Shown piece after piece: positions 8,622 to 33,243 of a stretch of 54,582 nt of DNA (position 1 is its first letter; each line of letters begins with the position of its first letter). Source of the DNA: Desulfobotulus pelophilus (GTDB taxonomy: Bacteria; Desulfobacterota; Desulfobacteria; Desulfobacterales; ASO4-4). The stretch lies in NCBI RefSeq assembly GCF_026155325.1, contig NZ_JAPFPW010000020.1, positions 1 through 54,582 on the forward strand. Direction: 5' to 3'. The notes under the pieces are model-generated. The model did no database searches and was not told the origin of the DNA. It was given only the letters and a program-made list of their open reading frames with translations. The translations under genes and the position numbers were made by a program.

Positions 8622-9458
8622 ATGCGTTGCATTCAAAAAATCTTTATATTGTCTTGCTTGTCTGTTTCTTTGCTTGTGGCTCCGGTGCATGCAGGAGAGA
8701 ATCCTTCTTTTAGAGGCAAAAGCGGAACTCTGCAGATTGCAGGAGGAACGGCGCACATACCCGTTATGAGGGATCTTGCAAGGGTAATCATGACAGAGGC
8801 TCCTTCTGTGCGTATTGCCATTGCCGGTGGTGGCTCTGGCGTGGGTATTCAGAAGGTTGGGGAAGGCCTGGTGGATATCGGTAATTCCGGGCGCAGACCC
8901 ACGGATCGGGAGATTGAAAGCTACGGACTGGTCCTTTACCGCTGGGCACTGGATGGTGTGGCTCTGGCCGTTCATCCTTCCAACCCCGTAGGTAGCGTGG
9001 ATGTGGCAACCCTTTCTGCCATTTATAAAGGGGAGATCAGAAACTGGAAAGAACTGGGAGGTCCGGACAGAACCATCACCCTTTATACACGGGATGCGGC
9101 ATCCGGCACCCGGGAGGTTTTCTGGACAAAAGCTCTCCAAAAAGGAGCGATTGCGGAGACTGCCCATGTGGTGGCTTCCAACGGGGCCATGAAAACGGCC
9201 ATTACCCAGGATCCCGGTGCCATTGGCTATGTATCCGTAGGCCATCTGGAACCGGGAATAAAAGCCCTTGCTTTTGAAGGTGTCATGCCCGGAGTGGATA
9301 CGGTGCTTTCCGGTGCCTATCCCGTTTCCCGGGGTCTTTACAGCAGTACAAAGGGAGAAGCCACCGGGCTGGCGGCAGACTTTCTGAACTATCTGTATAC
9401 CCCGGAAGGGCAGGCGATTATACGGGAAAAGGGTTTTATTCCTGCCGGTCGGGACTGA
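8622..9458 (+). CDS. pstS: Phosphate ABC transporter substrate-binding protein (PstS-like)
   Basis: A 278-residue exported binding protein. Residues 1-24 are a Sec signal peptide ending VHA before Gly-Glu. The mature part has the PBP-like fold motifs of PstS: AGGGSGVGIQKVGEGLVDIG (phosphate-loop region), SGRRPTDRE, IYKGEIRNWKELGG, and TRDAASGTREVF, the usual oxyanion-binding stretch. It captures phosphate in the periplasm for the permease encoded next. The start has AAGGGG upstream. A hairpin follows the gene before pstC. The short PstS type fits deltaproteobacteria. Specificity for phosphate over tungstate or molybdate is inferred mainly from the neighbours. Confidence 0.88.
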   Translation: MRCIQKIFILSCLSVSLLVAPVHAGENPSFRGKSGTLQIAGGTAHIPVMRDLARVIMTEAPSVRIAIAGGGSGVGIQKVGEGLVDIGNSGRRPTDREIESYGLVLYRWALDGVALAVHPSNPVGSVDVATLSAIYKGEIRNWKELGGPDRTITLYTRDAASGTREVFWTKALQKGAIAETAHVVASNGAMKTAITQDPGAIGYVSVGHLEPGIKALAFEGVMPGVDTVLSGAYPVSRGLYSSTKGEATGLAADFLNYLYTPEGQAIIREKGFIPAGRD

Positions 9459-9528
9459 TTTTCGGGTTGGCGGATACTGTGTACAGCGTTCCGGCATCCT
9501 GTGTACCGGATTCCGTATAATTGAAAAA

Positions 9529-9557
9529 ACCCGGAAAGCCGGTCAGCTTTTCCGGGT
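9529..9557 (+). terminator. Hairpin between pstS and pstC
   Basis: ACCCGGAAA (9529-9537) pairs with TTTCCGGGT (9549-9557), followed by a weak T tract. It probably attenuates read-through or protects the 3' end of pstS mRNA, so that more binding protein than permease is made. Confidence 0.6.
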
Positions 9558-9633
9558 ACAATTTTTAAAAGGGGCAGGTTCTCAGAATGGTTTCCTCTTT
9601 GAGAGCTCCTGTCCGGGGAGCAGGCTTTAGGCC

Positions 9634-10515
9634 ATGGGACAGTATTGTTTTCCCCCAAAGGATAAAAGGGAAACCCTTTTTCAGTATTTCTGCGGTTTTT
9701 CCGCATATTTTACCTATTGTCTTGTGCTGCTGCTTTTTGGCTTTTTTCTTTTTTTTGCTTATCCTCTTCTGAAAAGCGGAGGATATTTTCTTTTACTGGT
9801 AACACCCTGGCAGCCTTTGGCCGGTAATTATGGCATTGGCCCCATGATTGCAGGAACGGCTGTTATCAGCCTGCTGGCGGTGTGTCTTGCCTTTCCCGTA
9901 TCCTTGGGAGCGGCCGCTTTCTGCGAAGCAGGTCTTGCTCCTAGGAATCTTGTACGTTGGGTGCGGCCAGTTTTTCAGCTTATGACGGGCATCCCCACGG
10001 TGGTCTATGGCTTTCTGGCGGTTTTTCTTCTGGTTCCCTTTCTTCGCAAGGCCATCGGAGGTTCTGGTTTTTCTGTCCTTGCCGCATCCCTTATGCTGGC
10101 CCTTCTCATTGCACCGACCATGATCCTTTTTTTCTCCGATGCTTTCCGTGCTGTTCCCGGAGAGCACCTGCGAGTCATGACAGCCATGGGAGCCCATCCG
10201 GAAGAAAAGCTGGTTTTTCTGCTTCTGCCCCAGGCCAGAAGCGGTATTGTGGCGGGATTGCTTCTTGCCGCAGGCCGGGCTGTGGGAGATACCCTCATAG
10301 CCCTGATGCTGGCGGGTAACAGTCTGGCTTTTCCTTCCTCCCTTACGGAACCGGCCCGTACCCTGACAGGCCATATTGCCCTTGTGATGGCTTCGGATAC
10401 CCAAAGCCCTGAGTTCCGGTCCATTTTTGCCTGCGGGCTAACGCTGTACCTGATAACCACCCTGTTGATTTTTTTCTGCAGAAGGGTCGTGGTTTCTGAA
10501 AGGGGAAAAGGATGA
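9634..10515 (+). CDS. pstC: Phosphate ABC transporter permease PstC
   Basis: A 293-residue inner-membrane permease with six predicted helices and the ABC-permease cytoplasmic loop (AMGAHPEEKLVFLLLPQARSGIVAG, the EAA-type loop). MTGIPTVVYGF is typical of PstC/PstA. It pairs with PstA to form the channel. The stop overlaps the pstA start (ATGA), indicating translational coupling. The ribosome site upstream of 9634 is weak, so a slightly different start is possible. Confidence 0.9.
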   Translation: MGQYCFPPKDKRETLFQYFCGFSAYFTYCLVLLLFGFFLFFAYPLLKSGGYFLLLVTPWQPLAGNYGIGPMIAGTAVISLLAVCLAFPVSLGAAAFCEAGLAPRNLVRWVRPVFQLMTGIPTVVYGFLAVFLLVPFLRKAIGGSGFSVLAASLMLALLIAPTMILFFSDAFRAVPGEHLRVMTAMGAHPEEKLVFLLLPQARSGIVAGLLLAAGRAVGDTLIALMLAGNSLAFPSSLTEPARTLTGHIALVMASDTQSPEFRSIFACGLTLYLITTLLIFFCRRVVVSERGKG

Positions 10516-11396
10516 AGGCGCCCCTGCGTATAGCCATAAAAAGCGCTGCCTTTGCTGCGGCTTTGGGGCTTTGTTGTCTTGTTCTTTTTCTGCTGGCAGC
10601 CCTTTTTGTGAAAGCATGGCCTGTGCTGGATCTGCGCCTTTTGTTCGGGGATACTCCGCCGCTGCAAGCGATCAGGGGGGTAAGGCCCGTATTTGACGGG
10701 CTCTTCCCCGCCATTTGCGGAACCCTTCTTCTGGTGATTTGTGCTGTGGTTCTGGCCCTTCCCATGGGGATGGGAGCGGGCATTCATCTGGCTTTGGCTG
10801 CCAGCCCAGGTACCTGCCGCCGGATCGGCTTCTGCGTGGATATCCTTGCGGGTATGCCTTCCATTCTCATCGGTCTTCTGGGTTTTTCCCTTATTCTCTT
10901 TCTGTATCGTTACTTTCCGTTCATCACTCCGGGACTGCTGCCGGCAGCGGCATCTCTGGCCTGCCTTATTCTTCCCTATATCATCAGGGGAACCTGGCAG
11001 GCCATTCAGACTCTGCCACCGGAGCTGTTGCGGACCTCCCTCTCTCTGGGAGCCAGCCCTGTGCAGGCGCTGCGTCATGTCCTGCTTCCAGCTGCAAAAC
11101 CCGGGCTTACGGGTTGCCTCCTTCTTTCTGTAGGGCGTGCCGCCGAGGATACGGCCGTTATTCTTCTTACGGGTACCGTTGCTGCCTATGGTCTGCCATC
11201 GGGATTCTGGGATCCCTTCGAAGCCCTGCCATTTTTTATCTATACCACCGCAGCGGAATACGGCTCCCAGAGGGAGCTGGCCATGGGCTTTGCCGCATCG
11301 TTGATTCTGGTGGGGCTTTGTGGCGGACTCTTCAGCCTTGCCGCATTGATCCGCAGGACCGTACAGATGAAAATTTTTACGGGAAACATGTCATGA
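10512..11396 (+). CDS. pstA: Phosphate ABC transporter permease PstA
   Basis: A 294-residue inner-membrane permease with about six helices. It carries the loop LSLGASPVQALRHVLLPAAKPGL and the DILAGMPSILIGLLGF stretch that mark the PstA/PstC family. The start overlaps the pstC stop by four bases and is preceded by AAAGGGGAAAAGG. The stop overlaps the pstB start, so the three genes are tightly coupled. No sequence defect is visible. Confidence 0.9.
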   Translation: MKAPLRIAIKSAAFAAALGLCCLVLFLLAALFVKAWPVLDLRLLFGDTPPLQAIRGVRPVFDGLFPAICGTLLLVICAVVLALPMGMGAGIHLALAASPGTCRRIGFCVDILAGMPSILIGLLGFSLILFLYRYFPFITPGLLPAAASLACLILPYIIRGTWQAIQTLPPELLRTSLSLGASPVQALRHVLLPAAKPGLTGCLLLSVGRAAEDTAVILLTGTVAAYGLPSGFWDPFEALPFFIYTTAAEYGSQRELAMGFAASLILVGLCGGLFSLAALIRRTVQMKIFTGNMS

Positions 11397-12112
11397 TGAA
11401 ACCGAATATCAAAATCCGTATCCGCGATCTCCGTGTGGCCTATGGCAAAAGCCCTGTTTTTGCTAATGTTTCTCTGGATATAGCAGAAGGGGCCATTACG
11501 GCCATAACAGGGCCGTCCGGAGTGGGTAAATCTACTTTTCTTTTCAGCCTCAATCGTCTTTTGGAGACGGAAAATCAGGTGAATATTTCCGGCAGTATCC
11601 TGCTGGCTACGGAAAGGGGCTGGCAGGATATTCATGCCGGATCCATGGATGTGTATGAACTGAGACGGAAAGTATCTGTGGTGTTTCAAAATCCCAATCC
11701 TCTGCCCATGGGTATTTTTGCCAATGTGGCTCTGCCCCTCAGGCTGAAGGGTATCCGGAGAAAGGCGGAGCTGGAGGAAAAGGTGATCAGAGCACTGAAG
11801 CAGGCCCATCTCTGGGAGGAGGTGGGGCACCGGCTTACTGCGGATGCCCGTACCCTTTCGGGAGGTCAGCAGCAGCGGCTGTGCATAGCCCGAAGCCTTG
11901 TCATGCAGCCGGAAGTCCTGTTACTGGATGAACCAACATCCTCTCTGGATGCGTCGGCAGAGGCTGCCATTGAAAGCCTGCTTCTGGATCTGAAAAAGAC
12001 CTGTACGCTGGTACTGGTTTCTCATTCAAGAAGGCAGGTGAAAAACCTTGCGGATCTGGAGTTCGCCATGACCTGCCGTGACAAGAACAGGCCTGCCATT
12101 TCAGCTTTTTGA
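11393..12112 (+). CDS. pstB: Phosphate ABC transporter ATPase PstB
   Basis: A 239-residue ATPase that powers the PstCA channel. It contains Walker A GPSGVGKST, the Q-loop in VSVVFQNPNPLPMGIFANVALPL, the signature LSGGQQQRLCIARSL and Walker B VLLLDEPTSSLD. PNPLPMGIFANV is close to the PstB pattern. Two adjacent ATG codons (11393 and 11396) overlap the pstA stop and either could start. No phoU follows, although pst operons usually end with it. A terminator overlaps the end of this gene and sodA lies convergently beyond. Confidence 0.92.
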   Translation: MMKPNIKIRIRDLRVAYGKSPVFANVSLDIAEGAITAITGPSGVGKSTFLFSLNRLLETENQVNISGSILLATERGWQDIHAGSMDVYELRRKVSVVFQNPNPLPMGIFANVALPLRLKGIRRKAELEEKVIRALKQAHLWEEVGHRLTADARTLSGGQQQRLCIARSLVMQPEVLLLDEPTSSLDASAEAAIESLLLDLKKTCTLVLVSHSRRQVKNLADLEFAMTCRDKNRPAISAF

Positions 12113-12132
12113 AATAACAGACCTGTTTTTTT
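12086..12132 (+). terminator. Terminator of pst operon
   Basis: AACAGG (12086-12091) pairs with CCTGTT (12122-12127), and inside it ATTTCA pairs with TGAAAT. A run of T follows. The 5' arm lies within the last codons of pstB. Confidence 0.65.
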
Positions 12133-12212
12133 GTTTCTCCGTGCGCCGGGGCTTTTTTTGCGGTTAATATCCGGAAGCTTCCTCTGTGCAGCCGGACCTC
12201 TATGTTGGACAA

Positions 12213-12833
12213 TTACAGAATTATTCCCTCAAGGCCGGCTTCATACCGGTCATTCACAGCAGTCCAGTTGATGATTTTGAAGAAGGCTTTGATGTAATCG
12301 GGCCGTCTGTTCTGGTATTTCAGGTAGTAGGCGTGTTCCCAGACATCCAGGCCCAGCAAGGGTATTTTCCCATGCATGATGGGGCTGTCCTGATTGGGCA
12401 GGGGCAGCAGAACCGGTTTTCTTTTTTCATCCAGAACCAGCCACATCCATCCGGACCCGAAGAGTCCTGCCGCACCCTCTGTAAATTCTTTTTCAAAGTT
12501 ACCGTAGCTTCCGAAGGTGTCAACAAGGGATGTCAGTATTTTCCCGTCTGGTTTTTCTCCTGTTTTCAGTGTCTGCCAGAAGAGAGTGTGGTTGGCATGC
12601 CCCCCTCCGTGGTTGCGTACGGCCGTTTTTATGGTTTCCGGTAGGAGCTCCATTTTTCCGAGTAGCTCATGCAGGGTTTTTTCCTGCAGGTCCTTGTGGT
12701 TTTCCAGTGCGGCATTCAGTTTGTCCACATAGGTCTGATGATGTTTTGTGTGGTGAATTTTCATGGTTTCTGCATCAATATAGGGTTCCAGCGCATTGTA
12801 TGCGTAGGGTATTTCGGGAAGTATGTGCAGCAT
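12213..12833 (-). CDS. sodA: Superoxide dismutase, manganese type
   Basis: A 206-residue cytoplasmic Fe/Mn superoxide dismutase that converts superoxide to oxygen and peroxide. The metal ligands are in the family motifs MKIHHTKHHQTYV, NHTLFWQ and DVWEHAYYLKYQNRRPDYI. GGGHANH and the glutamine in LPNQDSP match the manganese-type pattern, so I call SodA rather than the iron enzyme; metal use itself cannot be proven from sequence. A strong AAGGAGG precedes the ATG at 12833; the seven extra residues of the longer frame have no support. It is monocistronic, facing the pst operon. For an anaerobe this suggests exposure to oxygen. Confidence 0.93.
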   Translation of the reverse strand: MLHILPEIPYAYNALEPYIDAETMKIHHTKHHQTYVDKLNAALENHKDLQEKTLHELLGKMELLPETIKTAVRNHGGGHANHTLFWQTLKTGEKPDGKILTSLVDTFGSYGNFEKEFTEGAAGLFGSGWMWLVLDEKRKPVLLPLPNQDSPIMHGKIPLLGLDVWEHAYYLKYQNRRPDYIKAFFKIINWTAVNDRYEAGLEGIIL

Positions 12834-13046
12834 TCTGTACCTCCTTGTTTGCATGGTTCATGCATCAGAATTTCTTATGCTGCAACAAAGAGTGTGTCTT
12901 TTTTTTGGTTTGTCAAAAAGTTTTTTAAGAAAAAAACACTCCCTGATTTGAATTTTATCGGGATTGGGCTGGTATGGGAACAATGGGCTTTTACAGAAAA
13001 GGGAAGGGTCCCATCTCAGAACAGGTTGAAACTCATGCCACTGTCG

Positions 13047-13400
13047 TCATTTTTTCCAATGCCACAGGTGAAGGGGTATGGTAGGATTGTATGTGTCGGC
13101 CATTTTAAAGTGGTGAATCATTTGCCATCGCTGACCCAGTGTCAGGTCGGATAGATCTATTGTGGACCATGAGGATGTAATTTCACGTATAAGAGGCATC
13201 CAGGCGTCTCTGTTGGCTTCAAAGGGAAGTCCTGTACAGGCCATGGCGTGGCGCAGGGCTTTATCCTGTATTTCGTAGAGGCTTTTTGCCATGGCAGCGT
13301 TTATGGCTTTTTCAGTCCTCCAGGCTGACGTGCCGGGAGCCGTGCACAGAGGATCGAGTATTCTCAAAAATTTTTGATAAAAAGAGCTGTCCTGCTGCAT
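13047..13400 (-). CDS. Small phage-type protein, faintly GemA/DUF1018-like
   Basis: A 117-residue protein preceded by GGGAGG five bases before the ATG. I do not recognise it firmly. The pattern of a short helical N-terminus, then W-x-PLIREIT and DLSDLTLGQRWQMIHHF, faintly recalls the GemA/gp16 (DUF1018) proteins of Mu-like phages. Its position, 56 bases downstream of a Ner-like DNA-binding gene on the same strand and opposite a phage-type repressor, supports phage origin. The transposase A and B genes that normally lie between such genes are missing. Confidence 0.5.
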   Translation of the reverse strand: MQQDSSFYQKFLRILDPLCTAPGTSAWRTEKAINAAMAKSLYEIQDKALRHAMACTGLPFEANRDAWMPLIREITSSWSTIDLSDLTLGQRWQMIHHFKMADTYNPTIPLHLWHWKK

Positions 13401-13456
13401 TCCGGCCTCCCTTTTTTTCTGCTCCGCTTTATCGGGTTTGTTTCGGATGGTGCCAT

Positions 13457-13720
13457 TTACTTCCAGAAGGTACGTTTCAGACGATTTTCAATGAGTTCGC
13501 GCAGTCGTGCACTTTTATATCTGCCATCGATCACGTTCCATATGCTGCTTCGGGAAACCCCCCATTCCCTGGCCCATTGGGCAACATTTTCTCCCAGCAC
13601 TCCGATCATTCCCCGGATTTCCCGGGCAATCCTGAATCGTTCCTGTTCATCGGGCGAGGCATTTTCAGGCATGCAGAGGGTGTAATGCACCACTTTTTCG
13701 GATTTTGCTGTGTGTCTCAT
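13457..13720 (-). CDS. Ner/Cro-like phage DNA-binding protein
   Basis: An 87-residue protein with a C-terminal helix-turn-helix: GENVAQWAREWGVSRSSIWNVIDGRY, with the second helix in SRSSIWNVI, followed by a basic tail RLRELIENRLKRTFWK. AAGGA lies eight bases before the ATG. It faces the S24 repressor gene across a 580-base regulatory region, as Ner faces the c repressor in Mu-like phages. It probably binds that region. The exact family was assigned by pattern and context only. Confidence 0.6.
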   Translation of the reverse strand: MRHTAKSEKVVHYTLCMPENASPDEQERFRIAREIRGMIGVLGENVAQWAREWGVSRSSIWNVIDGRYKSARLRELIENRLKRTFWK

Positions 13721-14302
13721 TGCATGATTCCTTTGTGGGGGTTGACGGCTTACTTCGTCCTGCAGAGATGGTGGAACAGAACCGCAGGTTCGGGCTGTGT
13801 CTGGCCGGTACCGTGCCGGCGGGAGGCCGGGAAGAAAAGAGTCGGCTGCATGGGTCTGGCCGGGTCCGTTTGTCTGTGGTAGAATGACTGATCAGGATCA
13901 GAAAAAAATGACGGCATTTCTGTTGGCGCTTTGATTCGGGGATATGGGCAGCCGGGGCTGTGGCCGTTGAACTGTTTTCAGATCTGTGTGCCAGTGCTAT
14001 TTCTCTGAGTCCGGATGACCTTTCCGGGTGAGTTGCCCTCCTCAACCTGCCAGTGAGTTCCTGTAGAGACCGGTATGGCTTTTCGGTTGTCACTGGACGC
14101 TCCATTCCCTTTATGATGACTGTCATCCGTAACAGATTAGAGTTGTCTCAATTCGTTCAAAGCTGTAATGATTACCGAGACATGTTTTGTTCTTCGGGAA
14201 AAAATCGTAAGCTAAATATTGTCGCCATGTCAATAAAAAACTGGTTTTTTCGCAGTTTTTAACTCCTTGCCAGGTGTTTTTAAGGATTGGAATCGCTCAC
14301 CT
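13721..14302. promoter_or_regulatory. Divergent regulatory region between phage-type repressor and Ner-like gene
   Basis: About 580 bases with no gene I can support. It holds a perfect palindrome GATGAC-T-GTCATC at 14115-14127 and an inverted pair TGTCTC (14144-14149) and GAGACA (14177-14182). Both are candidate operators for the repressor or the Ner-like protein. A 153-residue leftward frame covers much of it but overlaps the Ner-like gene and has coding-poor composition. Confidence 0.4.
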
Positions 14303-15115
14303 ATGTTGCCGATTACCTCAAAAGATAACAATTCTCAAAAAGAATCACTGAAAAACCAGGCTGATGCCGGTCTTTTTGAGAAGCGTTTGAATAGGCTGAA
14401 AAGTGTTTTAAAAGTTAAAAGCGAATCTGAATTAGCTAAAATCTTAAATATCAGGCCGCAGTCCATAGCTGCAGCCAGAAAGCGCGGCCAGTTTCCCACT
14501 GGCTGGATTTTTCAGGTGGCAGAGCTTGCAGGCGTTTCTTCGGATTGGCTTTTTTTTGGAACCGGTCCGGTCCGTCGAACGGTAACGCCGTGGTCAGAAG
14601 GGCCAGAAGAAGCAGTGGGGCAGAACGGTGCATTGAGTGAACTGGACGTAATGAAGGACAACAAAAGCAGTGAATCAGCCGAGGCGGAGTCGGAGTCAGG
14701 TCATTACGGATGGGTTCCCATGGTGGAAGCCCGGTTTGGGCCGGATGGAGAGTCCCTGGAAGTGGCGGAAAGCCGACGGAGCCTGTATGCGTTCCGAAAG
14801 GGGTTTCTCCGGCGTGTGGCTTCCAGTCCTGGAAAATTGGTTATGATGCGTATTAGCGGAGATTCCATGGAGCCGCATATCCAGGATGGTGGCATTGTCA
14901 TGATTGATCTGGGCCGATGCAGCCCCAGGGATGGCTGTATTTTTGCCATGAATTTTGACGATGTTATTGTGATTCGGGAGCTGGAGCTCCTTCCCGGAGG
15001 TATGTGCCGGGTTATCAGCCGCAAGCGATCCCGCTACGAGTCTTGTACGGTATCGTTAAAAGATATCTGTATTGTGGGTCAGGTTATTTGGAGTGATCGT
15101 ATCTTCCCACGGTAA
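14303..15115 (+). CDS. Phage-type CI repressor with S24 peptidase domain
   Basis: A 270-residue LexA-like repressor. The N-terminal third carries a CI-type helix-turn-helix (SESELAKILNIRPQSIAAARKRGQFPTGWIFQVAELAGVSSDWLFFG). An acidic Ser/Glu linker follows, then a C-terminal S24 domain with ISGDSMEPHIQDGGIVMID, containing the catalytic serine (GDSMEP) of the autocleaving family, and VIVIRELE. It would hold the prophage silent until RecA-stimulated cleavage. The start is uncertain: the ATG at 14303 has only a distant AAGGA, and the TTG at 14267 has none. It is divergent from the Ner-like gene and is the clearest remnant of a Mu-like prophage. Confidence 0.8.
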   Translation: MLPITSKDNNSQKESLKNQADAGLFEKRLNRLKSVLKVKSESELAKILNIRPQSIAAARKRGQFPTGWIFQVAELAGVSSDWLFFGTGPVRRTVTPWSEGPEEAVGQNGALSELDVMKDNKSSESAEAESESGHYGWVPMVEARFGPDGESLEVAESRRSLYAFRKGFLRRVASSPGKLVMMRISGDSMEPHIQDGGIVMIDLGRCSPRDGCIFAMNFDDVIVIRELELLPGGMCRVISRKRSRYESCTVSLKDICIVGQVIWSDRIFPR

Positions 15116-15189
15116 GTTACGCGTTTTCATGAGAAAGCAGCATGTGTGATGGAAAGCCTTCGGAATGAAAGTGTTTGGCAAAAATAAGC

Positions 15190-15236
15190 TTGGCAGAAAG
15201 CTCAATGGGTAGTATGTTTAGCTTGTTGGCTAAATG
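15190..15236 (+). promoter_or_regulatory. Promoter and ArsR-type operator of arsM
   Basis: TTGGCA (15190-15195) and TATGTT (15213-15218) are 17 bases apart. A perfect inverted repeat TTTAGC-TTGTTG-GCTAAA (15217-15234) overlaps the -10 box. Nearly the same sequence overlaps the -10 box of the second arsR gene (30365-30388), with 19 of 21 bases identical from 15216. It is therefore very probably an arsenic-responsive ArsR operator. Confidence 0.75.
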
Positions 15237-15354
15237 ATAAGCTGTTATCCTGCTGACGGAAAAAACGGCGGATTTGGAAGAAAAGAAGGCGTTTTCAGGG
15301 GGCAGGGGAATGGTTTCTGCATGATGACAGCGTGTGAGGTTGGGGAGAGAAGTT

Positions 15355-16122
15355 ATGATTTCGGATAAAGGGGCAGGACCTATGATCCGGCACCGTTATG
15401 GAGCTGTGGCATCGGCTGAGAACAGGGGCTGCTGCAGTGACGGTGGGCTGGCGTCCATTGATGCTTCCCGTCTTGGTTACAGTGCGGAAGAAGCGGCATC
15501 GGTTCCCGGGGGATCCAATCTGGGGCTTGGGTGCGGTAATCCCGTGGCCCTTGCCTCAATCAAGCCAGGTGAAGTGGTGCTGGATCTGGGGAGTGGAGCT
15601 GGGTTTGATGCTTTTCTTGCTGCAGAGAGGGTGGGTGAGACCGGTTTGGTTATCGGAGTGGACATGACGCCGGAGATGGTGGATAAAGCCCGCGCTAATG
15701 CAGAGAAAGCGGGGAAGTCTCAGCTGTCTTTCCGCTTGGGGGAAATTGAGTATTTGCCCGTGGCGGATGCTTCGGTGGATGTGATTATCTCCAATTGTGT
15801 ACTGAATCTTTCTGCGAGAAAGGATCGGGTTCTGGAGGAGTCTTTCCGTGTTCTGCGGCAGGGAGGGAGGCTGGCCATTTCCGATGTGGTACAGATGAAA
15901 CCCTTTAGCAGTATCTTGCTGGATCATCCTGACGCTCTCTGTGCCTGAGTTACGGGCGCCATAGCGCCCGAGCTTCTGGAGAAGCTCCTTGAAAAAGCCG
16001 GATTTACCGGTATTCAGATTGAGGTTCATGAGGAAAGTCGGGAATTTATCCGGGAATGGGTGTCGGGAATGGATGCGGGAGCCTATGTGAGAAGTGCCCG
16101 CATTCAGGCCAGAAAGCCCTGA
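15355..16122 (+). CDS. arsM: Arsenite methyltransferase ArsM, probable selenoprotein (in-frame UGA = Sec198)
   Basis: A SAM-dependent arsenite methyltransferase, 255 residues if the UGA at 15946-15948 is read through. The SAM site is VLDLGSGAGFDAFLAA with GVDMTPEMVDKA. Further ArsM hallmarks are SNLGLGCGNPVALASIKPGE, EYLPVADASVDVIISNCVLNLS (with the second arsenic-binding Cys) and, after the UGA, VTGAIAPELLEKLLEKAGF...EESREFIREWV. In ordinary ArsM the residue before V-x-GA is the third As(III)-binding cysteine; here that codon is UGA. The frame beyond it stays open for 57 conserved codons to the TGA at 16120. Two hairpins follow the UGA, one fitting bacterial SECIS geometry. A plain nonsense mutation is the alternative. 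The start has GGGGAGA upstream. An ArsR-type operator lies ahead and a strong terminator behind. Confidence 0.8.
15946..15987 (+). promoter_or_regulatory. Sec UGA codon and SECIS-like hairpins
   Basis: The UGA at 15946-15948 is followed by hairpin 1, GGGCGC-CATA-GCGCCC (15954-15969), and hairpin 2, GAGCTTC-TGGA-GAAGCTC (15970-15987). Both stems are perfect. The apical loop of hairpin 2 starts 28 bases after the UGA and has G as its second base. These features match published bacterial SECIS rules (loop 16-37 bases away, G in the first two loop bases). Confidence 0.6.
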
Positions 16123-16330
16123 ATACACCTCAGCGTCTGGTAAAATCGGAAGGAAGGGCTTGAGGAAAGTCTGGGCGGTCCCTTTTATGTCTCTGGTGGT
16201 CTCAGAGATTTTTCTCTGGGGTTGGCAGATAAAGCAGGCCTTGCCTGACTTCTGCAAGCGGTATGAGACGGTTTGGGACAGGTTTGTTTTTTGGGTGAGC
16301 AGGATTCAATTGCGATCCTGCCCTATGGAA

Positions 16331-16370
16331 AAGACTGGACAGGTTCGTTTGCCTGTCCAGTCTTTTTTTT
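16331..16370 (+). terminator. Strong terminator after arsM
   Basis: AAGACTGGACAGG (16331-16343) pairs perfectly with CCTGTCCAGTCTT (16352-16364), followed by a T run. It lies between convergent arsM and the SulP gene and may also serve the leftward gene. Confidence 0.85.
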
Positions 16371-16399
16371 GTCTGGGCGTTGCAGGGCTTGCCACCAGG

Positions 16400-18115
16400 C
16401 TACCCGTATAAGCCTTCTGTTTCGCCATGTGCCCGGGTGTGAGCCATTTTGTCTGTCTGTATCATGGCCTGCGCAGCAGCAAGAGCTTGGGAGAAGGAGG
16501 GAAAGAAGTGCTCTTCATCGATTTTCGGGCAGATCTGCATCTGCTGCATGGTTTTATGGACTTTTGGATGAAGCCCGCAGATAAAAACGCATGTTTTTTG
16601 TGCCTGCAGCCGGTCAATGGCAATTTCCAGCCCGTGAGCGGCTGTGGCATCGATGCTTTCCACTCTGCGCATCCGTAAAATAAGAATGGCCGGTGGTTTG
16701 TTCAGGAACTGAAAGGTGTCGAGAAACCGGTTTACCACCCCAAAGAAAAAAGGGCCTTCGATTTCATAAACCTGAATGGCTTCACCCGGGATGGGGAGTG
16801 TTTCGTCACCGGAAGGGGTGTGGGGATGCAGGTCAAAGTGGGCTAATGCCGCCATGCGTCTCATGAAGAGCAGGGCGGCAAGAACCACACCAACCTGAAC
16901 GGCAAGGGTGAGTCCTGCAAAAACAGTGAGAATGAACGTTACCAGCATGACAAAGATATCTTCGGCCGGAGAGTGGAGGAGGGTGATGAACTTGTGGATT
17001 TCTCCCATATCCCAGGCAACGATGATCAGAACACCGGCAAGGCAGGCCATGGGAATGCGGGAAGCCAGTGGTGCGAGGCATAGGATGGAGAGGGCAAGGG
17101 TGATGGCGTGAAAAATCCCTGCCATGGGCGAATGGGCACCGGCACGTATGCTGGTTGCTGTCCTTGCGATGGCGCCTGTGGCAGGAAGACCGCCAAAGCA
17201 GGCGGAAGCCATATTGGCCAAGCCCTGTGCCGTCAGCTCCGTGTCAGGGTTGTGTCGTTTTCCCGTCATTCCATCCGCTACGCTGGCACTGAGAAGAGAT
17301 TCGATCCCACCCAGAAAGGCAATGGTGAGGGCGCTGGGAATCATGACCGGTATGAGGCCCCAGATATTTTCAGGAATGCGAAAAGAGGGGAGGTTTGCCG
17401 GTATGCCACCGAAACGGGATCCTATGGTGGCAACTTCCACATCCAGCATGCAGACCAGTATGCTGGCGGAAAGGATACCCACAATATGGGCGGGAATTTT
17501 TGGTATTGTCCGGCGCACCATGACCATGACCAGAATGGTGAAAAGAGTGAGGCCCAGGGTTGCGGGGTCCGCTTCGCCCATGTGGGAGACAGCATGATTC
17601 ATGTGATCCAGGAAGGAAGATCCTTCCGGCTTGGCAGCGATGCCGAGCCCTTCCCGTAGCTGGGTGGAAAAAATAAAGAGGGCGATACCAGAGGTAAAGC
17701 CTGTGGTGACGGGATAGGGAATGTATTTGAGCATTTGACCAAGACCGAAAAGTCCCATCAGAAAAAGAAACATACCGGCCATAAAGGTGGCAACGCAGAG
17801 TCCTTCATATCCGAATTGGGCCATGATGGAGGCAATAATGGCAACAAAGGCCCCGGTTGGCCCACCAATCTGAAAGCGGCTTCCCCCCAGAAAAGAGATG
17901 ATGAATCCTGCCACAATGGCGGTAAAAATCCCCTGCCCCGGTGTGCATCCCGATGCAATGGCAAAGGCAATGGCCAGGGGGAGAGCTACAATCCCCACCG
18001 TGATACCGGCACCCAGATCCTGCATAAAATGACTGCGGAAGTAGTGTCTGGAAAAGACCATGCGGATTTCCGGCTGACAGGACGAGGTTATACGGTGAAA
18101 AACGGCAAAGTGCAT
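16400..18115 (-). CDS. SulP-family anion transporter with STAS domain
   Basis: A 571-residue inner-membrane transporter. The N-terminal SulP core has about 10-14 helices and the signatures GITVGIVALPLAIAFAIASG, GGSRFQIGGPTGAF and GGIESLLSASVADGMTG. A C-terminal STAS domain spans about residues 430-550 (YEIEGPFFFGVVNRFLDTF, LRMRRVESIDATAAHGLE). SulP proteins move sulfate, bicarbonate or other anions; sulfate would suit a sulfate reducer, but the substrate cannot be read from sequence. The ATG at 18115 has GGAGG seven bases upstream, better than the in-frame ATG at 18130 that overlaps that site. It is monocistronic. Confidence 0.88.
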   Translation of the reverse strand: MHFAVFHRITSSCQPEIRMVFSRHYFRSHFMQDLGAGITVGIVALPLAIAFAIASGCTPGQGIFTAIVAGFIISFLGGSRFQIGGPTGAFVAIIASIMAQFGYEGLCVATFMAGMFLFLMGLFGLGQMLKYIPYPVTTGFTSGIALFIFSTQLREGLGIAAKPEGSSFLDHMNHAVSHMGEADPATLGLTLFTILVMVMVRRTIPKIPAHIVGILSASILVCMLDVEVATIGSRFGGIPANLPSFRIPENIWGLIPVMIPSALTIAFLGGIESLLSASVADGMTGKRHNPDTELTAQGLANMASACFGGLPATGAIARTATSIRAGAHSPMAGIFHAITLALSILCLAPLASRIPMACLAGVLIIVAWDMGEIHKFITLLHSPAEDIFVMLVTFILTVFAGLTLAVQVGVVLAALLFMRRMAALAHFDLHPHTPSGDETLPIPGEAIQVYEIEGPFFFGVVNRFLDTFQFLNKPPAILILRMRRVESIDATAAHGLEIAIDRLQAQKTCVFICGLHPKVHKTMQQMQICPKIDEEHFFPSFSQALAAAQAMIQTDKMAHTRAHGETEGLYG

Positions 18116-28478: not shown

Positions 28479-29651
28479 CTATGCGAAAAAACTGCCATAG
28501 AACATGCCTGCCGCTGTGGACATGACAATGACCAGCAGGCTGAAAACCGCTGTTTTTTTCACTCCCAGCACACCGGAAACCACCAGCATATTGGGAAGGG
28601 AGATGGCAGGACCCGCCAGAAGAAGGGCCAGAGCCGGACCTTTTCCCATGCCTGAGCCCATGAGGCCCTGCAGAATGGGGATTTCCGTCAGGGTGGCAAA
28701 ATACATCAGGCCACCGGCAAGGGCTGCAAAAAGGTTGGCCCCAAAGGAGTTGCCCCCCACAAGTCCTGCGATCCATGATTCGGGTATCAGGGCGGGATGG
28801 CCGGGACGACCGAGGAAAAAGCCAGCAGCCAGTACACCAATGGCAAGAAGGGGGGCAATGAGTTTCACATAGTCCCAGGTGGACGCCACCCATGCTTTTC
28901 TTTCTTCCTGAATAAACCAGGCCTTGAGCATCCATGCTAGAATCCCCAGCAGGCCAATAACAAGGTACCATTTGATGCTGAATAAAAGGGCAAAAACACC
29001 AGCGCTTCCCGCCGCAGGCGGTGCGAGGGTGGCAGACAGAAGAATCAGTACCATGACCAGCATGAAACCGCCATCCTGCCAGAGACGGCGGCCCGTATCC
29101 TCTTCATCGGGAAGGTGGAGCTGGCCTGCGGTGCGGGCGGCATCGTCCTTTCTGAAAATAAAAGCCATCAGGAGGCCTATGATAAGGGCAAAGAGGATGG
29201 CACCGATGGCCCGTGCAAGGCCCATCTGCCAGCCCAGCACCCGTGCTGTGAGCACAATGGCCAGCACATTGATGGCAGGGCCGGAGTAGAGAAAGGCTGT
29301 TGCAGGTCCAATGCCTGCCCCGCGGGTATAGATGCCGGCAAAAAGAGGCAGGACCGTGCAGGAGCATACGGCAAGGATGGAGCCGGACACGGAGGCCACG
29401 GAATAGGCAAGGATTTTTTTAGCCTGGGCGCCGAAATATTTGAGCACCGCTGCCTGGGATACAAAGACAGAGATGCCTCCGGCTATGAAAAAGGCGGGGA
29501 TCAGGCAGGTGAGTACATGCTCTCTTGCGTAATCCTGCAGCATGAGAAAGGCTTCCAGGCCGGATCTGCGCATGACTTCATGGTCCCATGGAATGAAATA
29601 TGCGGCAATAAAAAGCCCGATGATCCATAAAAGTTTGCTTCTTTCCTGCAT
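28479..29651 (-). CDS. arsP: ArsP-type permease (DUF318/PF03773)
   Basis: A 390-residue inner-membrane permease with about ten helices. The family signature SGSILAVCSCTVLPLFAGIYTRGAGIGPATAFLYSGPAINV is present in the first half, and GLMGSGMGKGPALALLLAGPAISLPNM in the second. ArsP proteins export trivalent organoarsenicals; other members of this family have unknown cargo. The CSC motif lies within a helix, as in the family. AAAGGAG precedes the ATG. An arsR gene lies 117 bases upstream on the same strand. With arsM present elsewhere in the window, export of methylated arsenic is a reasonable inference. Confidence 0.82.
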   Translation of the reverse strand: MQERSKLLWIIGLFIAAYFIPWDHEVMRRSGLEAFLMLQDYAREHVLTCLIPAFFIAGGISVFVSQAAVLKYFGAQAKKILAYSVASVSGSILAVCSCTVLPLFAGIYTRGAGIGPATAFLYSGPAINVLAIVLTARVLGWQMGLARAIGAILFALIIGLLMAFIFRKDDAARTAGQLHLPDEEDTGRRLWQDGGFMLVMVLILLSATLAPPAAGSAGVFALLFSIKWYLVIGLLGILAWMLKAWFIQEERKAWVASTWDYVKLIAPLLAIGVLAAGFFLGRPGHPALIPESWIAGLVGGNSFGANLFAALAGGLMYFATLTEIPILQGLMGSGMGKGPALALLLAGPAISLPNMLVVSGVLGVKKTAVFSLLVIVMSTAAGMFYGSFFA

Positions 29652-29768
29652 GGTTTTCTCCTTTGTAACGGATGGAAGATGCTGTCCGTCATCTGGCGGG
29701 CAGGTGATTTTTGTAAAGGTATCTGGCCTGATGCTGGTGCGTGGCCGTGTTCATGTGCGGTAAGGCCC

Positions 29769-30134
29769 TCAGGATGCTGCCCGGTCAGGTACAGATTTGC
29801 GGATACGATCTCTGTGAATTTCCGGGAGGAGAGTTCGCATTTCTGTAACAGCGTCATCGTCTTCCAGCCAGTTTTTTATTTTGGCAAGCATGTCTGCGGC
29901 ATAGGGATTATCCGTTTCCTTGTCTAGGGCATAGTTCACCCACGGGCCTTCCTTTTTCCAATGGACAAGCCCTGCTTCTTCCAGAATTTTTAAATGCTTG
30001 CTTACCGTAGACTGGGCAAGCCCCATGACTTCCTGCAGTTCACAGACACAGAGTTTGCGATTTTCAAGGGCTTTCAGAATTTTCAGTCTTCCGGGATCGG
30101 AAAGAGCTTTCATGACTTTGATCAGATGTTTCAT
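29769..30134 (-). CDS. arsR: ArsR-family repressor (ArsP/redox branch)
   Basis: A 121-residue winged-helix regulator: MKALSDPGRLKILKALENRKLCVCELQEVMGLAQSTVSKHLKILEEAGLV, with the ELCVCDL-like metal site KLCVCEL at the start of the DNA-binding helices. It probably represses the downstream arsP and redox genes and is released by As(III). GGAGG lies just before the ATG at 30134. The 22-bp dyad upstream is a probable autoregulatory operator. It differs from the operator shared by arsM and the second arsR, so the two ArsR proteins probably read different sites. Confidence 0.88.
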   Translation of the reverse strand: MKHLIKVMKALSDPGRLKILKALENRKLCVCELQEVMGLAQSTVSKHLKILEEAGLVHWKKEGPWVNYALDKETDNPYAADMLAKIKNWLEDDDAVTEMRTLLPEIHRDRIRKSVPDRAAS

Positions 30135-30146
30135 TTTTATATCCTC

Positions 30147-30168
30147 CATATCGACATATGTGAATATG
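30147..30168 (-). promoter_or_regulatory. Dyad operator of leftward arsR
   Basis: CATAT-N3-CATATG-N3-ATATG forms a symmetric 22-bp element directly upstream of the ribosome site of the leftward arsR. The position and A/T-rich dyad fit an ArsR-family operator. Confidence 0.55.
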
Positions 30169-30342
30169 CGCTTCTGTTCTAGGCGTGTCAAGATGAAATG
30201 TTTATCCGTTTGGTCCGGGTGTAAGGCCAGCCCAGCAAAATCATCTGATGGCTATGTGTCTTCCCTGCAGAAAGGGTGTTCTTGCAGGTGGATGTGTCCG
30301 TATTCGGAAAAATATTATAATCAGAAAACAAGTTAAAAAAGC

Positions 30343-30388
30343 TTGAAAAATGGAACAGGGTTGCTATGCTTAGTTTGTTGGCTAAATG
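30343..30388 (+). promoter_or_regulatory. Promoter and ArsR-type operator of arsR-arsC
   Basis: TTGAAA (30343-30348) and TATGCT (30365-30370) are 16 bases apart. From 30368 the sequence GCTTAGTTTGTTGGCTAAA matches the arsM operator in all but two bases, with half sites TTAG and CTAA. The operator overlaps the -10 box and start region. Confidence 0.75.
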
Positions 30389-30406
30389 TTAAAGAGCGGA
30401 GGGAAT

Positions 30407-30763
30407 ATGGAAAAGCTGCTGGCCATTACCAAGGCCCTTTCCGATGCCAATCGGCTTCGGGTTCTCATGGCCCTGACGGAAAGGCCCCATCTCTGTGCCT
30501 GCCACCTGACGGAAATGCTTGGGGTGACAGGTGCTACGGTATCCCGTCATATGGGTCTGCTCCGTCAGGCTGGTCTTGTGAAGGCCAGGAAGTGTGGAAA
30601 GTGGACGCATTACACCCTTTGCACCGGCAATGTGCAGATCGACACCCTCCTTTCATGGGTGCAGTTGCATATGCCGGAAAATGAGGTGATTCGTGCAGAT
30701 CGGGAATTTATCCGGAGCTGTGTTCTGGAAAAAATGGAATGTGAAGAAGGGTGTTGTGGGTAG
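30407..30763 (+). CDS. arsR: ArsR-family repressor (arsC/acr3 branch)
   Basis: A 118-residue winged-helix regulator: ITKALSDANRLRVLMALTERPHLCACHLTEMLGVTGATVSRHMGLLRQAGLV, with a CAC metal site in HLCACHL and an extra C-terminal CEEGCCG that may bind metal. GGAGGG precedes the ATG at 30407. Its own promoter carries the operator also found before arsM, so it is the best candidate for the regulator of both. arsC follows 82 bases downstream. Confidence 0.9.
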   Translation: MEKLLAITKALSDANRLRVLMALTERPHLCACHLTEMLGVTGATVSRHMGLLRQAGLVKARKCGKWTHYTLCTGNVQIDTLLSWVQLHMPENEVIRADREFIRSCVLEKMECEEGCCG

Positions 30764-30845
30764 TCTTGGCTACTACCTTATCTGCCCTGATGAAGGTCAA
30801 AAAAATCTTCCCAAAAAGGGAGAAGAGCCGGAAGGAGGCAAGAAG

Positions 30846-31280
30846 ATGACAGAAAAAAAGAAATTGCTCTTTCTTTGCACGGGAAATTCCTGCCGCAGCC
30901 AGATGGCCGAAGGCTGGGCCAGGCATTTGAAGGGAGATGTGCTGGAGGTTTATTCGGCGGGTATGGAGACCCACGGGCTCAATACCAATGCCGTTGAGGT
31001 GATGGCGGAGGCGGGAGTGGATATTTCCGGACACAGGTCCAAGCTTCTGGAGGATCTTAAGGATGTGGATCTGGATTATGTGGTGACCGTATGCAGCCAT
31101 GCGAATGAAACCTGCCCCTATTTTCCGGGTAAAGCCAGGGTTGTGCATGTGGGCTTTGATGACCCTCCAAAACTGGCTGCCGGTATGGATGATCCCGAGG
31201 AAAAACGGAACTGTTACCGCAGGGTGCGGGATGAGATCCGGGCCTTTGTGGAAACCCTGCCAGCGAGCCTTGGGGCTTGA
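30846..31280 (+). CDS. arsC: Arsenate reductase, thioredoxin-dependent (low-molecular-weight phosphatase type)
   Basis: A 144-residue enzyme that reduces arsenate to arsenite. The phosphatase loop CTGNSCR gives Cys11 and Arg17. The two further redox cysteines of the thioredoxin-coupled class are Cys83 and Cys90 in VTVCSHANETCPYFPG, matching Cys10/82/89 of the Staphylococcus enzyme. DDPPKLAAGMDDPEEKR carries the family's aspartate segment. GGAAGGAGG lies before the ATG. The arsenite formed can be exported by the Acr3 encoded downstream or methylated by ArsM. Confidence 0.93.
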   Translation: MTEKKKLLFLCTGNSCRSQMAEGWARHLKGDVLEVYSAGMETHGLNTNAVEVMAEAGVDISGHRSKLLEDLKDVDLDYVVTVCSHANETCPYFPGKARVVHVGFDDPPKLAAGMDDPEEKRNCYRRVRDEIRAFVETLPASLGA

Positions 31281-31735
31281 GAAGAATTGTATCAGAACAA
31301 ATAAGATATGGTAACGGTTCAGCATAGTTTTTAAGGGATCCTATCGGTCAGGCAGATGCACAGGCAGCCAGACCATTTGCTCGCGGCGCAATTGTATTGT
31401 TAGAGCTTTTGGCCGGTGTGGAACCAACGAAAAATTTTTGGCACTCAAGACTGAAAATTTTATAAGAGGCTTTGGGTGTCTGCTTTGGGTGTCTGCTTTG
31501 GGTGTCTGCTTTGAGTGCCTGAAACCTGAAACGATTGCACTGACACTTGCAAACAGTCAGGATGCCTTGCAATGGTACGGATCTGCTGAATTATATGGTG
31601 TTGGAATTTTTGAATAAAAACGACTGTACCATCCCATATTATGCAAGAAATCCGTTTTTTGATAATGGAAAAGCACCTCTACAGGCTTCTTTCGAGGTTC
31701 TGTGATGCGTAAAAGGTTAGAGGAGAGTAGAAAAC
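31281..31735. other. Intergenic region with repeats, between arsC and AhpD-like gene
   Basis: About 455 bases without a supported gene. It holds a 13-bp tandem repeat (31471-31522) framed by the inverted repeat GGCACTCAA...TTGAGTGCC. The unit length is not a multiple of three and no continuous frame fits, so it is not coding. Confidence 0.5.
31439..31522. repeat. Inverted-repeat element containing four 13-bp tandem units
   Basis: GGCACTCAA near 31439 and TTGAGTGCC near 31511-31519 are inverted. Between them, TTTGGGTGTCTGC repeats three times exactly (31471-31509), and a fourth diverged copy runs into the right arm. A related element with the ends GGCACTCA and TGAGTGC lies at about 32023-32083, on the other side of the AhpD-like gene. 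Confidence 0.6.
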
Positions 31736-32011
31736 ATGGATGAAAGAACGAAAATTCTGATAGGAATTGGATCTTCCGTGGCCACAAGCTGTCAGCCCTG
31801 CCTTACACACCATGTGGACAGGGCGGATGAACTGGGAATTGAAGATGCGGATATTATTGAAGCCATTCATGTGGGAACCCAGGTCAAGCAGGGCGGCATG
31901 AAGGCCATGCAGCAGTTTGTGGAAAGGGTTGCTGGGAAAAGGCTGGAAGCGGTTTCTGTTCAGGGAGAGAATAGTGCGGAAAGCTGCTCCTGCGGTGGGA
32001 GCTGCTGCTGA
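31736..32011 (+). CDS. AhpD-like carboxymuconolactone decarboxylase-family protein
   Basis: A 91-residue protein of the CMD/AhpD fold. The active site is CQPCLTHH at residues 19-26, the CxxCxxxH pattern of AhpD-type peroxidase partners, followed by DIIEAIHVGTQVKQGGMKAM. It ends in an unusual CSCGGSCC tail that could bind a soft metal or arsenite. GAGGAGAG precedes the ATG. It sits between arsC and acr3, so a thiol-redox or arsenic-binding role is inferred. Such proteins occur in other arsenic operons, but their chemistry is not known to me. Confidence 0.8.
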   Translation: MDERTKILIGIGSSVATSCQPCLTHHVDRADELGIEDADIIEAIHVGTQVKQGGMKAMQQFVERVAGKRLEAVSVQGENSAESCSCGGSCC

Positions 32012-32022
32012 TTTGACTGATA

Positions 32023-32083
32023 TATATCCGGCACTCAGGTTGTAAATTCAAGCTTGTTGCTACTAAGTGACTTTTGGGCTTGA
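32023..32083. repeat. Second GGCACTCA...TGAGTGC inverted element
   Basis: GGCACTCAGG at 32024 and CTTGAGTGCTGG near 32073-32084 are inverted ends resembling those of the element at 31439-31519, but the interior is different and shorter. It lies between the AhpD-like gene and acr3. Confidence 0.45.
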
Positions 32084-32175
32084 GTGCTGGAAAACAAAAA
32101 ATCTTTGTGCCTTAGTATCTAACTATATTGAGAAGTATATGGTATTGGTGAGTTTTTATAAAAAAGGAGAAGCCC

Positions 32176-33243
32176 ATGACAGCTAAAGACAGCAGACCGC
32201 TGGGTTTTTTTGAAAGATATCTTACTATTTGGGTGGCCCTGTGCATGGTGGCAGGTATCCTGATTGGTTTTCTTTTTCCGGGAATGGCCAAGGTTATCCA
32301 TGCCATGTCCATAGAGCAGGTGAACCTTCCCATAGGGCTTCTGCTCTTTCTGATGATTTATCCCATCATGATGCAGATTGATTTTCCCCAGGTTGCCAAA
32401 GCCTTCAAAACCCCGCGTCCTGTACTGACAACCCTTGTGATCAACTGGGGAGTCAAACCCTTTACCATGACGTTTTTTGCCTGGATCTTCATGTTTTTCA
32501 TCTGGGCCCCTTTTATACCAGCCGATATGGCCAGTGAATATTTTGCCGGCATGGTACTCTTAGGTATTGCGCCCTGTACGGCCATGGTTTTTGTATGGAG
32601 CTATCTGTCCAGGGCCAATATGGGTCTGACCCTTGTCATGGTTGCCATTAACTCCCTTACCATGCTGGTTCTTTATGCCCCTCTGGGAAGCGTTCTGCTT
32701 GGCGTGGCTCTGCCCATTCCCTTTATCACACTGAGTCTCACTGTTGGTTTTTATGTGGGTGTCCCCCTTGTGGCAGGCTGGCTTTCCAGGCGTTATCTGA
32801 TTCATAAAAAAGGGAAAGACTGGTTTGATACGGTGTATGTGGCCAAATGGGGAAAGGTTTCCATTCTTGCTCTGTTGGCCACCCTGGTTTCTCTGTTCAT
32901 TCTGCAGGGAGATGTTATTCTGCGGTCTCCCCTTGTGATTGTGATGATTGCCATTCCCCTTATCATTCAGACCTTTGTTATTTTTGGCCTTGGTTATGTG
33001 GTCTGTCGTTTTCTGGGGATTTCCTATGAAGACGCAGCTCCCACTTCCATGATCGGTGCCTCCAATCACTTTGAGGTGGCCATTGCCGTGGCCATAACCA
33101 TGTTTGGTGTTACCTCCGGTGCTGCTCTGGCTGCCGTTGTGGGGCTTTTAATTGAAGTGCCCATCATGCTGGCTCTGGTGCGTTTTTGCCTCAGAACAAA
33201 GGCTTTTTTTCCATCTGAACCTGAAAAAGCTCCCCTTGCCTGA
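32176..33243 (+). CDS. acr3: Arsenite efflux permease Acr3
   Basis: A 355-residue inner-membrane exporter with ten predicted helices. Acr3 landmarks: LMIYPIMMQIDF, LGIAPCTAMVFVWSYLSRAN with the essential Cys134 in helix 4, and NHFEVAIAVAITMFG and GLLIEVPIMLALV with the conserved glutamates of helix 9-10. AAAAAGGAG precedes the ATG. It exports the arsenite formed by ArsC. A clear terminator follows, so it closes the rightward arsenic operon. Confidence 0.95.
   Translation: MTAKDSRPLGFFERYLTIWVALCMVAGILIGFLFPGMAKVIHAMSIEQVNLPIGLLLFLMIYPIMMQIDFPQVAKAFKTPRPVLTTLVINWGVKPFTMTFFAWIFMFFIWAPFIPADMASEYFAGMVLLGIAPCTAMVFVWSYLSRANMGLTLVMVAINSLTMLVLYAPLGSVLLGVALPIPFITLSLTVGFYVGVPLVAGWLSRRYLIHKKGKDWFDTVYVAKWGKVSILALLATLVSLFILQGDVILRSPLVIVMIAIPLIIQTFVIFGLGYVVCRFLGISYEDAAPTSMIGASNHFEVAIAVAITMFGVTSGAALAAVVGLLIEVPIMLALVRFCLRTKAFFPSEPEKAPLA

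Follow-up and report, generated by a model that had tools for sequence, protein, structure and literature searches.

The arsM gene of Desulfobotulus pelophilus at 15355–16122 (forward strand) of the 54,582-nucleotide stretch of DNA analysed here, which we call the window, very probably encodes a SAM-dependent arsenite methyltransferase with selenocysteine (Sec) inserted at an internal UGA, codon 198, by way of SelB and a hairpin in the message. Translation of the frame gave 197 codons, the UGA (15946–15948, forward strand) and then another 57 codons before a UGA stop (16120–16122), for a predicted selenoprotein of 255 residues; translation might alternatively start at a GTG at 15334, in frame with arsM. 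When the UGA was read as a residue, the product matched NF008823, the NCBIfam arsenite methyltransferase model, at 296.2 bits (cut-off 263) over residues 10–255, that is, across position 198 to the end of the protein, and this was the single match above the cut-off among 12 in the D. pelophilus genome. The local motif at the UGA, U-V-T-G-A, fits UxxG. The preliminary description of this DNA had reported a UGA at codon 198 followed by 57 family-matching codons, and had placed it at the cysteine of a C-V-x-G-A segment; the frame, the family match and the purifying selection described below agree with the first statement, and the motif and the alignment column bear out the second. Gene callers that halt at the UGA would be expected to yield a 197-residue protein without one As(III) ligand.

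The UGA takes the place of an As(III)-binding cysteine

Columns were assigned from phmmer alignments to solved algal ArsM chains (5evj, 4kw7 and 4fr0, with 4fs8 among the entries), and CmArsM residue numbers were counted off the printed 4fr0 alignment. Residue 198 fell opposite Cys224 of 4fr0. The arsenic-binding sites of CmArsM are given as Cys72, Cys174 and Cys224, and the C174A and C224A variants as inactive in both methylation steps (PMC3877260); the UGA, lying in the Cys224 column, therefore takes the place of an As(III) ligand. Counterparts of all three residues are present: C60 (codon 15532–15534, forward strand) for Cys72 and C148 (codon 15796–15798, forward strand) for the As(III) ligand Cys174, both positions being counted on the sequence from the alignment, and U198 for Cys224. 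Algal and bacterial Cys-form ArsM proteins (4fr0, 5evj) have the methyltransferase core and the counterparts of C60 and C148 in common with the D. pelophilus protein but differ in the third ligand, which is Cys in those proteins and would be Sec here; the algal chains are also longer (377–387 residues), with only their first part aligning, to about residue 248.

In the mechanism that we propose, SelB, guided by the hairpin just 3′ of the codon, would insert Sec at UGA 198; Sec198 would form the As(III) site together with C148 and C60, and its selenolate would bind arsenite and methylarsenite, with SAM donating the methyl group as in Cys-ArsM. The insertion of Sec itself, the binding of As(III) by selenium and any improvement in affinity, rate or re-reduction are what we infer from the sequence. 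Selenium chemistry offers possible reasons for the use of Sec, namely a lower pKa, a stronger As–Se bond and easier re-reduction.

Codons after the UGA are under purifying selection

The same UGA at arsM codon 198 was present in all three genomes examined from the taxonomic family, which belong to a single genus; the ArsM proteins of the sister genomes share 77% and 79% identity with that of D. pelophilus. Each of the three genes continues for 57 codons after the UGA and ends at a UGA stop. Over this part dN/dS was 0.12 between D. pelophilus and one sister genome (G002; dN 0.08, dS 0.70), 0.19 between D. pelophilus and the other (G001; dN 0.11, dS 0.56) and 0.15 between the two sisters; the corresponding values before the UGA were 0.21, 0.23 and 0.11. 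The codons after the UGA are under purifying selection, and neither sister genome shows the downstream degradation that the preliminary description had named as grounds for abandoning its reading.

Programmed truncation, in which the 197-residue protein is the working product and a near-cognate tRNA allows some read-through, draws on the observation that the bulk of the aligned methyltransferase core precedes the UGA. Since termination generally competes with Sec decoding, some of the 197-residue form is likely to be made. Against truncation, the 57 codons beyond the UGA show conservation at the protein level (dN/dS about 0.12 with G002 and 0.19 with G001), and the residue that would be lost is an As(III) ligand reported as required for both CmArsM steps (PMC3877260); we regard truncation as highly improbable.

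The genome carries a complete Sec machinery

The preliminary description had proposed a search of the genome for selA, selB, selC and selD, and all four were found: selA (6.6e-163), selB (379 bits, cut-off 242), selD (376 bits, cut-off 125) and selC, the tRNA-Sec gene (75.4 bits, gathering score 47), which Rfam confirmed and for which ARAGORN gave the anticodon UCA. The selD frame (locus L128, C2:166808–167725) has one in-frame UGA of its own, near its start; read as Sec, the surrounding product is ..RAAGUAAKLAP.., which fits the Sec form of SelD, and the SelD of this genome is predicted to be itself a selenoprotein.

A candidate SECIS hairpin follows the UGA

RNA 3′ of the arsM UGA folds as two hairpins, with z scores of −3.8, −3.0 and −2.2 for 45, 55 and 71 nt. 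The UGA-proximal hairpin (GGGCGC-CAUA-GCGCCC, 15954–15969, forward strand, −11.2 kcal/mol) falls outside the SECIS model, its loop lying 11 nt from the UGA with no G in the first two loop positions. It precedes the candidate bacterial SECIS (GAGCUUC-UGGA-GAAGCUC, 15970–15987, forward strand, −8.7 kcal/mol), whose 7-bp stem, UGGA loop and distance of 28 nt from UGA to loop satisfy the bacterial rules as quoted in PMC13188914; a SECIS-type hairpin does follow the UGA that the preliminary description had read as Sec. None of the 18 hairpin bases differs among the three genus members, an invariance that leaves no covariation available there. An Rfam scan of 14000–17500 gave no match to SECIS; five RNA families came up at E values as high as 5, each with less than half its gathering score.

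The same rules for stem, loop and spacing were applied to 29 UGA genes of the order (22 canonical and 7 divergent, introduced below) and to 121 Cys genes. At −5 kcal/mol or below, a threshold set once the scores were known, a SECIS-like hairpin followed the codon in 29/29 UGA genes and in 8/121 Cys genes; at −7.5 kcal/mol or below the figures were 19/29 and 3/121. Over the 45 nt after the codon, folding energy averaged −14.8 for the UGA genes, as against −9.5 for the order's 41 Cys genes, at similar G+C content (Mann–Whitney p 9.5e-7); the genes share kinship and the loci were not randomly drawn, so neither these hairpin counts nor this p value are independent tests. At the true stops of the same UGA genes (n = 28, one gene being dropped because its contig was too short), a SECIS-like hairpin was found in 5 at −5 or below and in 1 at −7.5 or below, and the best hairpin at the UGA stop of D. 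pelophilus arsM itself scored −0.9.

Synonymous change was also absent where the hairpin lies. Codons +8 to +15 after the UGA had zero synonymous differences among the three genus members, whereas, with the first 15 codons set aside, 180 of the 574 codon pairs that could be compared differed. For one pair within the genus (L098 and L099), 0/8 differences were counted at the hairpin codons and 78/196 in the gene. Four zero-difference windows occurred among the 121 comparable ones, two at the hairpin and two about 125 codons upstream. This lack of synonymous change is supporting, not decisive, evidence for a SECIS role.

Sec and Cys forms exchange at one column

An order-wide draw matched 149 of 389 genomes at E <= 1e-30, and at least 30 of the order matches had a UGA inside the frame, 22 of them in canonical ArsM (3 from the genus and 19 others) and 8 in divergent relatives. 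The column was then read over 150 loci, comprising 80 contig loci and 70 genome loci (30 with UGA, 13 hand-picked Cys forms and 27 Cys loci from the search). TGC occurred in 77, TGT in 44 and TGA in 29, and these were the only codons seen, so that the exchange of U and C among relatives, a further check suggested at the outset, amounts to 29 UGA and 121 Cys. In all 22 canonical UGA genes the aligned stretch contains no stop but the UGA, which lies exactly at the column; C148 is kept in 22/22 and C60 in the 21/21 that cover it. In the divergent genes the UGA is at the column in 7/8, the eighth (L155) having been counted as Cys when its alignment fell on another, Cys-bearing copy. The best 80 of 548 contig-wide relatives all had Cys at the column (80/80), a pattern-selected set that gives no estimate of how frequent Sec forms are. 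Among the matches listed, a class-wide search returned same-order genomes only, and its best loci were those of the order-wide draw.

Two loci (L121 and L041) have one stop in the aligned frame, a TAA in L121, yet a Cys codon at the column; these are possibly broken copies or effects of the chosen start site.

A nonsense mutation or a sequencing error would leave arsM broken or conceal a true TGC or TGT codon. One base separates UGA from either Cys codon, and Cys occupies the column in 121 of the 150 loci of this non-random sample. Set against this are the same UGA in 3/3 genomes of the family and in 19 further canonical genes of the order, purifying selection on the downstream codons, and a SECIS-like hairpin accompanied by complete Sec machinery, which together make mutation or error exceedingly improbable; more broadly, a pseudogene, a sequencing error or general recoding of UGA is a very unlikely cause of the arsM UGA. 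The reading of the gene as a Sec-ArsM in the preliminary description is supported by the sel genes, the U/C exchange, the intact sister genes and the SECIS-type hairpin.

Hairpin registers and the origin of Sec in the genus

The 19 other canonical Sec-ArsM genes of the order have a distinct hairpin, with a 6-nt loop beginning 20 nt after the UGA (in 4 of the 19 the scan gave a loop of 4 nt at 21 nt). Its seven pairs are standard or G–U in 19/19, with compensatory types at pair 2 (UA in 9, CG in 8, UG in 2) and pair 5 (AU in 15, GC in 2, GU in 2). Together with the divergent genes, three registers are found: 28 nt in the genus, 20 nt in the 19 canonical genes and 17 nt in the 7 divergent ones. 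The 28-nt register is one of two features that set D. pelophilus arsM apart from the other 19; the other is C196, two residues before Sec (CxU), where they have T (18) or A (1).

A quick tree was built from 90 rows (3 + 18 Sec and 69 Cys); it omitted L149, whose sequence was too short, as well as L155, the divergent rows and 51 of the 80 contig loci. In this tree the genus was nested within Cys forms, separately from the other Sec clade, which requires two changes. An AU test on the same data scored a tree with both Sec groups together 24.7 log units better (p-AU 0.848). With a single origin of Sec not rejected by this test, we make no claim of two origins from the tree. We hold tentatively, as somewhat less than an even prospect, that the genus swapped the As(III)-binding Cys for Sec independently of the other clade of the order and with its own 28-nt SECIS. 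If so, Sec would have been gained more than once, and this would imply that anaerobic arsenic methylation favours selenium at this one ligand.

Relation to known Sec-ArsM proteins

Sec-ArsM was already known by 2008, which answers the question of earlier description raised in the preliminary description, and the D. pelophilus gene is a further example. In that year eight sequences were reported from an ocean survey, and the protein was counted with the families common to prokaryotes and eukaryotes (PMC2398784). A 2016 count gives 41 Sec-ArsM proteins in 39 organisms (PMC5029168), Sec-ArsM is listed again in 2020 (PMC7435645), and a 2022 review places it right before a group headed ‘Predicted’ (PMC9312934). 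The entry in a 2026 review (arsenite methyltransferase, NF008823, UxxG, one Sec, WP_011987699.1) stands directly above ‘Predicted with high confidence’ with Fomenko et al. 2007 as its reference, and that review names Sec-ArsM in a group nearly all of which was identified by bioinformatics (PMC13188914). D. pelophilus ArsM belongs to the same family (NF008823/PRK11873, WP_011987699.1), with U at UxxG and a single predicted Sec, and does not differ in kind. ArsM/AhpD, ArsM/DUF2284 and methyltransferase/UXPK-star selenoproteins (NF041537, NF041536, NF047649) have a related domain with Sec at UxxG, but carry two to three Sec and a second domain (PMC13188914); D. pelophilus ArsM scores far below their cut-offs (154 of 510, 135 of 575 and 163 of 460 bits, respectively).

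The gene adds a well-supported example, with conservation in sister genomes and a mapped SECIS candidate, and the presence of Cys and Sec forms in one order would allow the reason for using Sec to be tested directly. Among the titles and abstracts listed in a literature search, none dealt with the effect of selenium on As(III) methylation by Sec-ArsM.

A divergent group with Sec as the sole ligand residue

Seven divergent ArsM-like genes (L150–L154, L156 and L157) have the UGA at the same column and a SECIS-like hairpin at 17 nt. In 7/7, C60 is replaced by T and C148 by G, and the N-terminal CC pair is lost. Because Sec is the sole ligand residue left, the substrate of these proteins may be something other than arsenite. 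The two members scanned (L150 and L152) were below every curated NCBIfam cut-off, L150 ends shortly past the domain with no fusion partner, and inspection by eye of the neighbours at five loci gave no shared gene pattern. This Sec-only group and the two hairpin placements in the order are less documented than Sec-ArsM itself.

Genomic setting

In each of the three genus members, genes for pst phosphate uptake lie near the predicted Sec-arsM (8622–16122 in the window; L179 and L180 in the others). In L180 the matches to a pst ORF and to arsM are about 50 bases apart; in L179 and D. pelophilus a superoxide dismutase match lies between pst and arsM, and in D. pelophilus so does a gene that looks repressor-like by eye and has no NCBIfam match. 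Arsenate enters cells via phosphate transporters, which makes a functional link between arsM and pst plausible.

The window also contains an arsenic-type cluster at 28479–33243, with its regulator, arsenate reductase and Acr3 genes about 14–17 kb downstream of arsM. A 91-residue protein with a GGSCC tail has no NCBIfam match; a thioredoxin-type arsenate reductase match and a permease with best matches to SaoE and SO_0444 are below cut-off. The genes scoring above their cut-offs are an Acr3 arsenite efflux gene and two ArsR/SmtB regulators. By its gene content the cluster looks like one for arsenic detoxification.
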